Notes under the pieces: model-generated
What the model saw: only the letters and a program-made list of their open reading frames with translations
What the model was told of the DNA's origin: nothing
The model's database searches: none
In this document: positions 32,036 to 40,514 of the stretch, in pieces
Position numbering within the stretch: position 1 is the first letter of the stretch
Layout: the number at the start of each line of letters is the position of its first letter
DNA from: Ectothiorhodosinus mongolicus
Lineage (GTDB): Bacteria; Pseudomonadota; Gammaproteobacteria; Ectothiorhodospirales; Ectothiorhodospiraceae
Direction of reading: 5' to 3'
Assembly: GCF_022406875.1 (NCBI RefSeq)
Contig: NZ_CP023018.1
Coordinates: forward strand, 779,575-843,574
DNA length: 64,000 nucleotides
Translations under genes and position numbers: made by a program

Positions 32036-33904
32036 ATGAATCACGACGAGCAACAATCACGGCTCAAAGAGCTGATTGCCAAAGGCAAGGAACAGGGCTA
32101 CCTGACCTATGCCGAGGTCAATGACCACCTGCCTGACACCATTGTGGATCCGGAGCAGATCGAAGACATCATTGCGATGATCAATGATATGGGGATCACC
32201 GTTCATGAACAGGCCCCCGATGCCGATACCCTGATCCTCTCGGATAACTCGGTCTCAACCGACGAGGATGCCGCAGAAGAAGCGGCCGCCGCGCTGGCCT
32301 CAGTGGACGGCGATTTTGGCCGCACCACGGATCCCGTGCGCATGTACATGCGCGAGATGGGTACGGTTGAGCTGCTCACCCGCGAAGGTGAAATCAGCAT
32401 CGCCAAGCGCATCGAAGAAGGCTTGGCGCAGGTGCTGTTTGCCCTGGCCCACTCGCCTAAAGTCATTGCATTGCTGCTCTCGGAATACGGCCAAGTGGAA
32501 GCCGGAAACGTCAAACTGACTGATGTTTTGGTGGGCTTTTTGGGCCCTGATGGTGAGCCGGAAACCCCGCAGGCTCAGGCCGATAATGATTCCAATAACA
32601 ACAACAGCGATAACGCCAACGATGATGATGGCAATGGCGACGATGACAGCGACGATGATGATGATTCAGAAAACGCCGCCCCCGAAGACACGGGACCGGA
32701 TCCAGAGGAAGCCCGTCAGCGCTTTGAGCAATTGGAAGTCATTTATGAGCGCGCCATGGAGTATGCGGCCCAGGGTGATCAGGACAAATATCGTGAAACC
32801 CGCGTCGAGATGGCGCAATTTTTCATGGAATTTAAGCTGATTCCGCGCCTGGTTGACCGTCTCACCGCTGACCTTCATGAGATGGTGGCCCGCATTCGCG
32901 CTCAGGAGGATTTCCTCATTCGCCTGTGTGTAGAAACCAGTGGCATGCCCCGCAAAGAATTCATCCGCAGCTTCCCCAAGAATGCCACCAACCTGAAATG
33001 GGTCGACGAGCTGCTTGAAGGCAAGGCCGCGCGTTACAAGGAAGCTTTGGCTGAACAGCGCGATGACATCGTCAAAGCCCAGAAACGTTTGCTGGCGATT
33101 GAAGATGAGGCCACGCTGACCATTGGCGAGATCAAAGATATTAACCGCCGCATGTCGATTGGTGAGGCCAAAGCGCGCCGCGCCAAGAAAGAAATGGTGG
33201 AGGCAAACCTGCGCTTGGTGATTTCTATTGCCAAGAAGTACACGAATCGTGGCCTGCAGTTCCTGGACCTGATTCAGGAAGGCAACATCGGCCTGATGAA
33301 AGCCGTGGACAAGTTTGAATACCGGCGCGGTTATAAGTTCTCGACCTACGCCACTTGGTGGATTCGCCAGGCGATCACCCGCTCGATCGCCGACCAAGCC
33401 CGCACCATCCGTATTCCGGTACATATGATTGAGACCATCAACAAACTCAATCGCATCAGCCGGCAGATGCTGCAGGAAATGGGCCGCGAAGCGACGCCAG
33501 AAGAACTGTCCGAGCGCATGGAAATGCCCGAAGACAAGGTGCGCAAGGTGCTGAAGATCGCCAAAGAGCCTATCTCCATGGAGACGCCCATCGGTGATGA
33601 CGAAGACTCGCATTTGGGTGATTTCATTGAAGATCAGAACGTGCAATCACCGATTGAGTCGGCAACCCGCGAAAGTCTCTCGGAAACCACCCGCGAGGTG
33701 TTGGCCAGCCTGACGCCGCGCGAGGCTAAAGTACTGCGCATGCGCTTTGGCATCGATATGAATACCGACCACACGCTCGAGGAAGTCGGTAAACAGTTTG
33801 ATGTCACGCGTGAACGTATTCGCCAGATCGAGGCCAAGGCCCTGCGCAAGCTACGCCACCCCAGCCGCTCCGAGCTGCTGCGCAGCTTCCTCGACAGCGA
33901 GTAA
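32036..33904 (+). CDS. rpoD: Primary sigma factor RpoD (sigma-70)
   Basis: Housekeeping sigma factor, 622 residues. Region 1.1 is at the N-terminus ('[20 protein letters not shown]'). Region 1.2 is '[11 protein letters not shown]', followed by a non-conserved region containing a run of Asp/Asn (about residues 183-216). Region 2 contains '[20 protein letters not shown]' and '[15 protein letters not shown]'. Region 3 follows, and region 4.2 is '[20 protein letters not shown]'. The Asp/Asn tract is longer and more repetitive than usual but falls where gammaproteobacterial sigma-70 proteins vary. A tRNA gene begins seven bases after the stop. Confidence 0.98.
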
Positions 33905-33911
33905 GTGTTAC

Positions 33912-33988
<77 letters not shown>

Positions 33989-34053: not shown

Positions 34054-35805
34054 ATGAGCAAACCGCCATCTGAAGACGCGAATATCCTCTACGCTGTTGA
34101 CGATAAACCGCCTCATCTGCTCTCTGCCCTTTTGGGCTTTCAAGTTGTTGCCCTGATTCTCGCCTTTATTGTGCTGATCCCAGTGATCGCGCTGGATGCT
34201 GGCGGCATGGATGACAATGCCAAAGCTTGGGCGGTGTTTGCGACGCTGATGGTGAGTGGTTCGGTCACCATTCTGCAAGCCAAAGCAATAGGACCCATTG
34301 GGGCGGGTTATGTGCTGTTCATGGGCACATCTGGGGCATTTATTGCGGTCTCCGTTTCAGCGCTTCAAGCGGGCGGGCTTCCACTCTTAGCCTCACTGAT
34401 CATCGCCTCCTCGCTGGTGCAATTTTTATTCGCCAACCGCTTGGGCTTGCTGCGGAAAATCATCACGCCGACGGTGGGTGGCACAGTTGTTGCCTTGATT
34501 GCCGTCGCTGTCATCCCGATTGCTTTAAACATGTTGAACGTGCGTCCGGAAAATTATGCGGGCACAGATTCAGCGGCCGCATGGACCGCAGCGCTGACGC
34601 TGGTGGTGATCCTGGGACTCTCTTTTTTCGGCAACAAGAAATGGCGCTTGTGGGGACCTGTCATTGGCGTCGTCACTGGCTCGATATTTGCGCATTTCAT
34701 GGGCTTAACCGATTTGCGCGCATTGGCTGAAGCGGATTTTATTGGCCTTCCACCGGCGAGCTGGCCGGGGATTGATTTAAGTTTTAGCACGGCTTTTTGG
34801 GTGTTGTTGCCGGGCTTTATCATCGTCACTGTCATTGGGGCGCTCGAAACCTATGGCGATGGTATCGCCATCCAAGAGGTATCCAGACGCGGACGCAACC
34901 CAACCGATTACAAAGCCGTCCAAGGCGCAGTGTCTGCGGATGGCATGGGGAATTTACTGTCAGGCCTGAGTGGCACGCTGCCTAATACGACCTACTCCAC
35001 CAGCGTTTCAGTGGTCGATTTAACGGGCGTTGCCGCCAGGCGGGTGGGTATTTATGGCGGCATTATTCTCATGTTGCTGGCTTTTTCCCCGAAAGTTTCA
35101 GCCTTGCTACAGTCGATACCAGGTCCCGTTGGCGGCGTGTTTTTGTTTTTCTTGATTGTCCTGTTATTTGCCCACGGTATCCGACTGATTGTGAGCGACG
35201 GCCTGTCTTTTGATAGCGGCATCATCTTCGGTGTGTCTTTGTGGATGGGTTATGGCTTTCAGGCCCAGGGGGTGTTCCACGAGCTGATGCCGCCAATGAT
35301 GGCCCAACTCCTGGATAATGGCATGACCACCGGCGGCCTCACCGCTATCGCCTTATCCCTATTGCTGACGCTCAAGCGCTCCAAAGCGCACCGCCTGACC
35401 GTGCCCGCGAAAGCTTCCGCCCTACCACAAATCATGAGTTTCGCGCGTGAAAAAGCCGAGCAAGCAGATTGGCGCGGGGATGATGTCATGCGCCTAGAAT
35501 TAGCGCTCGAAGAGGCTTTTTTGTATCAAGTCGAGAAAGCCGGTGAAGATAATGACTTTAAGATTCGCTTATCACTGCGCAAACTCGATCATAAACTCGA
35601 GGTGGAGTTTGTCAGCGCCCCCGCTGAGGATAATCTCGAAGCGGTCATTCAAAATATGCAAACGGATTCTGATTTTTCGGCCGATGATCTGCGCCTGCGT
35701 CTTTTGGCGGGAATGGTGGAAAAACTCTCGCATGAGCAGTTTAATCAGCAGGACTATCTGTCGCTGGTCATCGCGCAAAAACGCGAAGTACAGCGCCTAA
35801 GCTAA
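34054..35805 (+). CDS. NCS2-family nucleobase permease fused to an RsbW-like (degenerate HATPase) domain
   Basis: The 583-residue protein starts at the ATG at 34054; the open frame upstream runs through the tRNA. Residues 20-440 are an NCS2 (uracil/xanthine permease) membrane domain of about 12-14 spans, with ALETYGDG (262-270), holding the TM8 acidic substrate residue, and GTLPNTTYSTS (307-317) in TM10. In TM10 the Glu or Asn that usually follows TTY/NTF is replaced. Residues 455-583 are cytoplasmic and resemble an anti-sigma kinase fold ('RLELALEEAFLYQVEKAG', 'LRLRLLAGMVEKL'). The N-box Asn is Tyr and no DxG or GxGL ATP motifs remain, so kinase activity is unlikely. It overlaps the next gene by one base. 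Confidence 0.8.
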   Translation: MSKPPSEDANILYAVDDKPPHLLSALLGFQVVALILAFIVLIPVIALDAGGMDDNAKAWAVFATLMVSGSVTILQAKAIGPIGAGYVLFMGTSGAFIAVSVSALQAGGLPLLASLIIASSLVQFLFANRLGLLRKIITPTVGGTVVALIAVAVIPIALNMLNVRPENYAGTDSAAAWTAALTLVVILGLSFFGNKKWRLWGPVIGVVTGSIFAHFMGLTDLRALAEADFIGLPPASWPGIDLSFSTAFWVLLPGFIIVTVIGALETYGDGIAIQEVSRRGRNPTDYKAVQGAVSADGMGNLLSGLSGTLPNTTYSTSVSVVDLTGVAARRVGIYGGIILMLLAFSPKVSALLQSIPGPVGGVFLFFLIVLLFAHGIRLIVSDGLSFDSGIIFGVSLWMGYGFQAQGVFHELMPPMMAQLLDNGMTTGGLTAIALSLLLTLKRSKAHRLTVPAKASALPQIMSFAREKAEQADWRGDDVMRLELALEEAFLYQVEKAGEDNDFKIRLSLRKLDHKLEVEFVSAPAEDNLEAVIQNMQTDSDFSADDLRLRLLAGMVEKLSHEQFNQQDYLSLVIAQKREVQRLS

Positions 35806-37532
35806 TGGAGGCGAATACGTGGCAACTCGTTCCGGGCAGCGACCGAGTTGAGATCTATCCGATCATCTCTAAGCCAAGCATCCTATCCTCGAACTGCTAT
35901 CTACTCTCAGCGCCGAATGCACTCATTGTTATTGATCCGGGCGCAAACCCAACACAAACGGCTATCATCAACGCGGTACTGAATGAAGCATTGTCAGCCA
36001 AGCCGCGGCCGGTGCTGAGCTTTTTGACGCACTGCCACCAAGATCACTCTCAAGAACTGGGCTCAATAGCCCTGCCTGAGGGGATCGAGATCAAGCACTT
36101 TGCCCATGAGGCGGGCGTTGATGCTTTAGCCAGGGGTGATAAACAACTCACCGTGGCCTATCTTTATCCGTGGGAGCCGCCCGTGTGCACTGCGCCTTTT
36201 GCAGGCTGCTTGTTTGACGCACGCCACTGGAAGAACCCCAAGATCATCTCGTATGCGAATGGCGATACATTCGAACTGCGAGGAAAGCTGCTGAACTTGC
36301 CCAATGGCACACTGCTCAAGCAGCAATCGATATCGCTGGGCGAGGGTGAAATGCTAGAGCTTTACCACACCCCCGGACACACACCCTGCAGTATTTCACT
36401 GCGCGTTGCCCGTTTGCTGTTATCAGGCGATATCTCTTTTGCAGCTAATCCCGGACTGTGCGGGCTCGACGGGTGGAGTCATGCAGACCTCATGGATACC
36501 TTAGGCAAGGTCGACTGGCTGTTGCAGCAGCATGACATCGAAGTGTGCTGCACCGGCCATGGCTTTTGCGTACCTGCACCGCAGATGCAGCAAAAGCTGC
36601 GCCAAGTCGAAGAAGATGCTCGCGGGCTGGTCGAGGTTGATTCGCTGAATGCCGATCGAATCCGATCACTCAAACTGTATGTTGACGAGTTATTGGAGGA
36701 AATGTCCGTTCTGTTCACGATACTGTCGGGACGGCTATATACGGCGTCATTTTATCTATCAGAGCTTGAGGAGGAGGACGCCGCTCAGGAGATTCTGAAC
36801 CAGAGCGATCTGGATAAAATCGACCGCATACTCTCCGAGTTTAGACGTTTTATCGAGGCATTTAATGCCAGCGAAACGCCCGAATTAACCTTGGTCTTAA
36901 AGGGCGTGCAAGTGGCAGGTTCATTGCAAAATCTGCTCGACGGGTCAGTATTGAGTGACTTGTTGGACTCTTCACTAGTGGCACGTGCTCGGCGACTTCT
37001 AACCGACTATTTAGGGGCTGTGCGCGGCCTGAAATTTGTGAACAGCGAGAGCTCAGGCAATGTTCATGAACTCCTGAAGAATCTGCAGAAGCGCACCCAA
37101 GCGCTGGCGGATCGCGCTGCGCAGGATTTATTGGAATCAGCAGACAGTGAGCAATCCTTTATATCCGCCCTAGCGCGGCGACTATCGAGTCAATCTCCCT
37201 TGCGGCACGCCGAACTCACCCTCGTGACCGAAGCGCAATCAGGTGATATTGCATTCAGCATTGAACGTTTGGATGACATATTGAGCAATCTCATTGAGAG
37301 CACGATCGCGCGCGGCGCTCGGCACATTCAGATTAGAACGGAGTCTCTGGCAGATCACATACTGATCAGTCTCTCAGCTCAGCCGGCGGTTGCACCGACA
37401 TCATTCTCCCCGCGGCGCCTGAGTCTGTACTGCCGCATGTTAGGTTGGTTATCGGGAAGCTTAGAATGGGTCGAGGTCGATGGCGGAACGGAATTTCTCT
37501 TACATGTTCCGACCCAAATGACCAAGCTATAA
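35805..37532 (+). CDS. Metallo-beta-lactamase-fold hydrolase fused to a histidine-kinase-like region
   Basis: A 575-residue soluble protein. Residues 15-260 are an MBL-fold hydrolase with a full set of metal ligands: H76, H78, D80, H81 (HCHQDH), H192 (GHT), D209 (SGD) and H252. Residues 265-445 are long helices, probably coiled-coil and dimerising. Residues 450-575 resemble the ATPase domain of a sensor kinase ('LDDILSNLIEST', 'GWLSGSLEWVEVDGGTEFLLHVP'), but the second N-box Asn, the DxGxG motif and the GLGL motif are missing and no H-box histidine is evident. So the hydrolase looks active and the kinase part does not. It overlaps the permease gene by one base, forming a two-gene unit. Substrate unknown. 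Confidence 0.78.
   Translation: MEANTWQLVPGSDRVEIYPIISKPSILSSNCYLLSAPNALIVIDPGANPTQTAIINAVLNEALSAKPRPVLSFLTHCHQDHSQELGSIALPEGIEIKHFAHEAGVDALARGDKQLTVAYLYPWEPPVCTAPFAGCLFDARHWKNPKIISYANGDTFELRGKLLNLPNGTLLKQQSISLGEGEMLELYHTPGHTPCSISLRVARLLLSGDISFAANPGLCGLDGWSHADLMDTLGKVDWLLQQHDIEVCCTGHGFCVPAPQMQQKLRQVEEDARGLVEVDSLNADRIRSLKLYVDELLEEMSVLFTILSGRLYTASFYLSELEEEDAAQEILNQSDLDKIDRILSEFRRFIEAFNASETPELTLVLKGVQVAGSLQNLLDGSVLSDLLDSSLVARARRLLTDYLGAVRGLKFVNSESSGNVHELLKNLQKRTQALADRAAQDLLESADSEQSFISALARRLSSQSPLRHAELTLVTEAQSGDIAFSIERLDDILSNLIESTIARGARHIQIRTESLADHILISLSAQPAVAPTSFSPRRLSLYCRMLGWLSGSLEWVEVDGGTEFLLHVPTQMTKL

Positions 37533-38256: not shown

Positions 38257-40514
<2,258 letters not shown>

Follow-up and report, generated by a model that had tools for sequence, protein, structure and literature searches.

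A permease with an RsbW-like tail and a hydrolase with a kinase-like end as candidate inputs to bacterial partner switching

Introduction

Many bacteria carry partner-switching genes whose input signal is unknown. Here, we examine two overlapping genes, gene A and gene B, of Ectothiorhodosinus mongolicus, located in a stretch of 64,000 nucleotides (contig NZ_CP023018.1, positions 779,575 to 843,574 of the forward strand; called the window throughout), and ask what is achieved by placing a permease that ends in an RsbW-like domain next to a metallo-beta-lactamase (MBL)-fold hydrolase that ends in a histidine-kinase-like region. An initial annotation, made from the DNA sequence, proposed that the two degenerate kinase-type folds pair with each other, so that the permease controls the hydrolase at the membrane without phosphorylation. 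The reading we favour, to which we give an even chance, is that the two proteins form an input branch of partner switching of the RsbU/RsbV/RsbW type, one as a transceptor and the other as an enzyme-sensor, which would make them concrete, testable candidates for such inputs. The locus exemplifies two protein families, and no description of either was found.

Results

Gene A begins with an ATG at position 34054, and the final A of its TAA stop is also the A of the gene B ATG (TAATG). The one-base overlap described by the initial annotation is therefore present, implying co-expression of the two genes. Both proteins have kinase-like ends without ATP-binding residues, in agreement with its view of a two-gene unit of signalling type. 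The degenerate GHKL fold that it assigned to each end is firm for gene A, based on comparison with RsbW profiles, and moderate for gene B, based on Foldseek matches of a predicted structure.

The C-terminal domain of gene A matches HATPase_c_2 (Pfam E 4.4e-4, under the gathering cut-off), as does that of its relative L022 (Pfam 1.4e-9). Gene A proteins fall into two types, separated with support of 100/100 in a tree of 34 proteins; type I tails carry FDEFNLD and WGAR motifs, and the window protein is type II. A profile of ten type II tails aligned to canonical RsbW over 130 columns with an hhalign probability of 98.1 (E 7.5e-14), and the type I profile did so with a probability of 97.7. Among the 33 tails that could be compared (23 of type I and 10 of type II, the window protein included), the N-box Asn is found in none and the N-box Glu is retained in 30. 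No type II tail and almost no type I tail has the first two glycines of the G2 box; the DxG motif is also absent from type II, and most ATP-binding residues are gone from type I. The window protein itself has a Tyr at the N-box Asn position and has lost the DxG and GGLG motifs, while the N-box Asn and G2 glycines were always present in four canonical RsbW controls. At the level of sequence, the assignment of this tail as a degenerate GHKL domain is firm, and because the RsbW fold is conserved while the nucleotide site is lost, a binding role is suggested. A test for direct homology between the gene A tail and the gene B end detected none (hhalign probability below 3).

The remainder of gene A is, by sequence, a member of the NCS2/NAT permease fold family, with a Pfam match to Xan_ur_permease (Table 1) and matches to the NCBIfam models pbuX and ncs2, both under their cut-offs. 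Alignment with UapA places E265 of the window protein at E356 in transmembrane segment 8 (TM8), and T316 and S317 at Q408 and N409 in TM10; the full set of NCS2/NAT substrate residues (Glu in TM8, Gln or Glu plus Asn in TM10) is incomplete in this protein. Across the family, the TM8 Glu is replaced by Lys or Arg in 19/23 type I proteins, and the position of the TM10 Gln is occupied by Ser, Ala, Gly or Thr in type I; type II proteins mostly have Glu or Asp there. In UapA, E356 contacts the purine, E356 and N409 are irreplaceable for function, and an E356D substitution binds xanthine 18-fold better with transport abolished (PMC3405029). Because the purine-binding residues are remodelled (Lys or Arg at E356 in type I, N409 lost in the window protein), the gene A permease may be receptor-like; such changes suit a receptor better than an ordinary symporter.

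Lactamase_B (Pfam 1.1e-13) is the sole Pfam family found in gene B. The HxHxDH, H, D, H pattern of MBL-fold hydrolases is present, and its metal ligands (H76, H78, D80, H81, H192, D209 and H252) are invariant in an alignment of 10/10 homologues. The C-terminal half has no Pfam family, with no HisKA or HATPase match in any of the ten members. An AlphaFold model built from a four-row alignment (mean predicted local distance difference test [pLDDT] score of 66) consists of the MBL domain, a helical bundle and, at residues 470-569, a GHKL-like beta-alpha-beta-beta-alpha-beta-beta arrangement in which the ATP-lid loop is short. When this model was searched against the PDB with Foldseek, the best match was GloB (8e-8), beta-lactamases matched too, and the DHp-CA domains of DesK, SrrB and CpxA were matched with E values of 4e-6 to 6.5e-6. 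No conserved His is found at residues 283-460 across the ten homologues, and the N-box Asn is absent from all ten. Gene B looks like an apparently active metal-dependent hydrolase mounted on a dead histidine-kinase core, with moderate confidence in the degenerate GHKL assignment of its end.

Genes for PP2C phosphatases, STAS proteins or RsbW kinases are found within 1.5 kb of 7/32 gene A loci and 0/32 plain NCS2 permease loci (Fisher p 0.005, indicative only, as the loci are related). Trimmed PP2C, STAS and RsbW domain queries were used for this comparison, which was chosen after the result with full-length PP2C queries had been seen. That earlier control gave 7/32 versus 3/32 (p 0.15, not significant), and we suspect that the full-length queries matched unrelated proteins through their sensor and kinase parts. 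The gene orders are HAMP-PP2C, STAS, A in G471; A, PP2C, STAS in G728; STAS, A, PP2C in G403; A, PP2C in G053; A, then STAS-RsbW in G876; and Bmp/PnrA lipoprotein, A, NMT1 protein, PP2C, STAS, RsbW in G747 (L163, G747:C2:206500-219000). This last operon appears to wire a nucleoside-binding Bmp/PnrA lipoprotein, an NMT1/THI5 protein and the permease to a partner switch. In G409, a GHKL ATPase gene and then a gene for a DUF4325 STAS-like protein lie directly downstream of a type II gene A (L165:4268-5081).

Genes of the same kinds adjoin relatives of gene B. The row on Binatia contig L030 is GAF-PP2C, STAS, B, TIR, STAS, A; a PAS-PP2C gene follows B in G053 and L031; and a GAF-PP2C gene lies upstream of a truncated B in L033. 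The TIR-domain protein (L030:4124-4918) has B on one side and a STAS gene on the other, and near gene B of G053 is a STAS domain fused to an aminoglycoside-phosphotransferase-type kinase (L012:180-1370). Two phmmer matches to PP2C beside B were rejected: Pfam identifies the one in L087 as a GAF-HisKA-HATPase kinase, and the one in L088 resembles it and has a similar relative position. STAS proteins near relatives bear the usual SSAGLR motif and the RsbW kinases there are intact. Because relatives of both genes adjoin PP2C genes, STAS genes with SSAGLR and intact RsbW, signalling without phosphorylation, as initially proposed, is doubtful.

The window locus itself has no PP2C, STAS or RsbW neighbours. 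A cassette elsewhere in this genome, ~1.06 Mb from the A-B pair (G000:C1:1871173-1874896; L053:6674-10397), encodes RsbW (C1:1871197), STAS (C1:1871691), an NMT1/THI5-like binding protein and a dCache-HAMP-PP2C protein (C1:1874303) that is the only SpoIIE-type phosphatase of the genome. Its four proteins share 36-40% identity with their counterparts in the gene A operon of G747. A lone second STAS gene lies at 1.696 Mb (C1:1695550). The cassette adjoins a gene for a CobN/magnesium-chelatase subunit (L053:2730-6617), which hints at a phototrophic host.

Gene A with its tail is found more often than gene B. Among 58 relatives, full-length gene B is found in this genome and in G053 only (39% identity), and in the class it is found in 2/369 genomes; a single-sequence scan of genome contigs with gene B returned no relative. 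Searching ~85,000 species genomes with a two-row gene B alignment recovered a copy with 50% identity on Binatia contig L030, a gene on L031 that closely matches the one in G053, and a truncated gene B in a deltaproteobacterial bin (L033). Contig L031 (CAMAXE010000003.1) is titled as a metagenome-assembled genome (MAG) of Klebsiella pneumoniae, but its B and PP2C genes are almost identical to their counterparts in L032, a gammaproteobacterial MAG, which makes an error in the title probable. In the phylum of G402, the genome to which L030 belongs, gene B is found in 8/395 genomes and full-length gene A with its tail in 21/395 (G640 counted). Full-length gene A is also found in four genomes of genus g3 and in 4/399 genomes of the phylum of the window (G000, which is this genome, G1094, G876 and G921); the other matches in that phylum stop at about residue 440 and resemble plain permeases. 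A second copy of gene A, of type I, lies in this genome at C1:1606753 (C1:1606750-1608477; L026:5980-7707); it overlaps a GDSL-lipase gene and is of the same subtype as accompanies gene B elsewhere. As none of nine sampled congeners has either gene at full length, A and B were both probably gained in this lineage.

The co-occurrence of the two proteins, which the initial annotation had suggested checking, exceeds chance: within the phylum of G402, full-length A is present in 5/8 genomes with B and in 16/387 others (Fisher p 1.3e-5, kinship ignored). Most genomes with gene A have no gene B. Where both are full length, they are unlinked in 6/8 genomes. Clusters occur only in the window and on the Binatia contig, the latter with TIR and STAS genes separating B from A; orthologues, which were initially expected side by side, are thus clustered twice and mostly apart. 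In the phylum of G402, gene B accompanies type I A in 5/12 genomes and type II alone in 0/8 (p 0.051), and the window is the only case of a type II A alongside B among the genomes examined, making the tight linkage of the two in the window unusual. Because linkage is seen only in the window and, loosely, on L030, and partners elsewhere are type I, this pattern favours two inputs to a common kind of pathway over a dedicated A-B pair.

The features of the locus are listed in Table 1. The initial annotation reported no adjacent sigma factor gene. Taken literally, this does not hold, as the open reading frame (ORF) upstream of gene A (32036-33904) is RpoD by sequence, presumably the housekeeping sigma factor, with no link seen to the pair. 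A tRNA-Met gene between this ORF and gene A is context, outside the A-B unit. Downstream of gene B, a small ORF without a Pfam match is followed by a catalase-peroxidase-like ORF (38328-40514, by sequence).

Table 1. Coordinates of genes A and B, their domains and the flanking tRNA within the window
Feature	Position	Strand	Evidence
Gene A, NCS2-type permease with C-terminal pseudo-RsbW domain, 583 aa	34054..35805	+	Pfam, full-length relatives
Permease domain of gene A, aa 25-402	34126..35259	+	Pfam Xan_ur_permease 1.1e-52, UapA alignment, family counts
Pseudo-RsbW (HATPase_c_2-like) domain of gene A, aa 450-561	35401..35736	+	Pfam, alignment, profile comparison
Gene B, MBL-fold hydrolase with C-terminal pseudo-histidine-kinase region, 575 aa	35805..37532	+	Pfam, alignment
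MBL domain of gene B, aa 28-257	35886..36575	+	Pfam, alignment, Foldseek
DHp-like helical bundle of gene B, aa 283-440	36651..37124	+	AlphaFold model (moderate to low confidence), Foldseek, alignment
GHKL/CA-like C-terminal end of gene B, aa 466-569	37200..37511	+	AlphaFold model, Foldseek, alignment
One-base overlap TAATG	35803..35807	+	sequence
tRNA-Met, context only	33912..33988	+	tRNA call

Discussion

If the two genes feed nutrient or metabolite signals into a partner switch, gene A would act in the membrane as a receptor (or transceptor) derived from a permease, and its cytoplasmic RsbW-like domain would most likely dock one of the partner-switch proteins (STAS, RsbW or PP2C), with docking dependent on the ligand or transport state of the permease. 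Gene B would be a hydrolase of the glyoxalase II type whose dead histidine-kinase core serves as a scaffold for docking or dimerisation, and the same switch would respond to the presence or turnover of its substrate. The cassette at 1.871 Mb would be that switch in this genome, with a sigma factor or another output beyond it. More broadly, and only tentatively, we propose that an NCS2-derived family of receptors, largely former transporters, uses an ATP-dead RsbW domain to control partner switching, with the companion hydrolase on its dead histidine-kinase core providing a second, enzymatic input.

Several observations weigh against the partner-switch reading. No partner-switch gene lies within 1.5 kb of 25/32 gene A loci, and among these are the window pair, the four g3 relatives and the second gene A of this genome. 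Gene B is beside PP2C in four loci from few lineages, and neither PP2C nor STAS genes adjoin seven B homologues from the phylum of G402; two of those seven are near a gene resembling a GAF histidine kinase, one of them Pfam-confirmed. The kinase-like end of gene B is invisible to sequence search and depends on a model of moderate confidence, and a model of gene A predicted from a two-row alignment reached a pLDDT of 35.

Of the alternatives, the one that survives best, though we judge it unlikely, involves no signalling: gene A would be a permease with a tail that tunes transport or dimerisation, gene B a metabolic hydrolase, and the two would share a salvage operon. The complete metal site of gene B fits this explanation, as do the Bmp nucleoside-binding lipoprotein gene beside one A relative and the molybdopterin-type dehydrogenase genes beside two others (L083 and L084, from ORF reading alone). 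It does not account well for a specific signalling fold of >100 residues kept in 33 proteins, for the replacement of positions essential to NCS2 transport, or for PP2C, STAS or RsbW genes that adjoin some A loci and no sampled plain permease.

That the dead folds of A and B bind each other at the membrane, with the permease ligand controlling the hydrolase and no phosphorylation taking place, was the initial proposal, and we now consider it rather improbable. The overlap with its likely co-expression, the presence of A in 5/8 genomes with B, and the clustering on the Binatia contig all speak for it. Elsewhere, however, the A that accompanies B is of type I, a clade other than that of the window protein, the genes are usually unlinked, and A mostly occurs without B; in addition, the two C-terminal ends have no profile similarity, and PP2C and STAS are the better-attested neighbours of both families.

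A third explanation, for which we see little likelihood, treats the proteins as inputs to two-component systems, with gene B a dead histidine-kinase partner in mixed dimers with an active kinase. The resemblance of its end to the DHp-CA domains of DesK, SrrB and CpxA agrees with this, as does a GAF-HisKA-HATPase gene near B in L087 with a similar gene in L088 (phmmer only); yet these are two neighbour cases only, both divergently oriented, and the fold of gene A is of the RsbW type, foreign to two-component kinases. Finally, it is very improbable that the domains are still kinases with atypical nucleotide binding, gene A phosphorylating a STAS protein like RsbW, since against the N-box Glu kept in 30/33 A tails stand the loss of the N-box Asn from all 33, of DxG and the first two G2 glycines from type II and most of these from type I, degeneracy of the gene A family across large distances, and a gene B bundle with no conserved His and no N-box Asn in 10/10.

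Should genes A and B indeed act on a partner switch, the RsbU/V/W pathway would have an input derived from a transporter, and dead GHKL domains would have been retained as signalling connectors on both a permease and an enzyme. A few proteins of this single 2 Mb genome would be enough to test the claim. Fusions of transporters to signalling domains are already known (CbrA; PMC13022988), as are partner switches (PMC3999984); permeases with a dead RsbW domain or other permease-RsbW fusions, MBL-kinase fusions and transporter-linked partner switches were not found in the open-licence literature searched.

Compared with known proteins, gene B has the fold of glyoxalase II (GloB) and all seven of its dimetal ligands, and differs in ~300 extra residues that form the kinase-like end. 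In the phosphotransferases Spo0B and ChpT, a DHp bundle is joined to a degenerate CA domain. Gene B is likewise modelled with a DHp-like bundle followed by a GHKL-like end that lacks the N-box Asn, but it has no conserved phospho-accepting His and is fused to an enzyme. Gene A has a full permease domain similar to those of the NCS2/NAT permeases UraA and UapA, from which it differs by the replacement of key substrate residues in TM8 and TM10 and by an extra C-terminal domain of 140 residues. Like the SLC5-STAC histidine kinases CbrA and CrbS of Pseudomonas and Vibrio, of which CbrA has been described as a rare transceptor (PMC13022988, PMC7096432), gene A joins a transporter and a GHKL-type signalling end in one polypeptide. 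Unlike them, its transporter is NCS2 rather than SLC5 (Pfam finds no SLC5 domain, STAC linker or active kinase in it), its signalling end is of the RsbW type without ATP-binding residues, and its relatives adjoin PP2C and STAS genes rather than response regulators. The closest pathway is RsbU/RsbV/RsbW (SpoIIE/SpoIIAA/SpoIIAB), including RbaV/RbaW/RbaY of Rhodobacter (PMC3999984), which has the same fold as the gene A tail and whose PP2C, STAS and RsbW genes adjoin relatives of A and B; it is known to receive signals through stressosomes or through sensor domains carried by the phosphatase, whereas here the candidate input is a permease with a dead RsbW domain.

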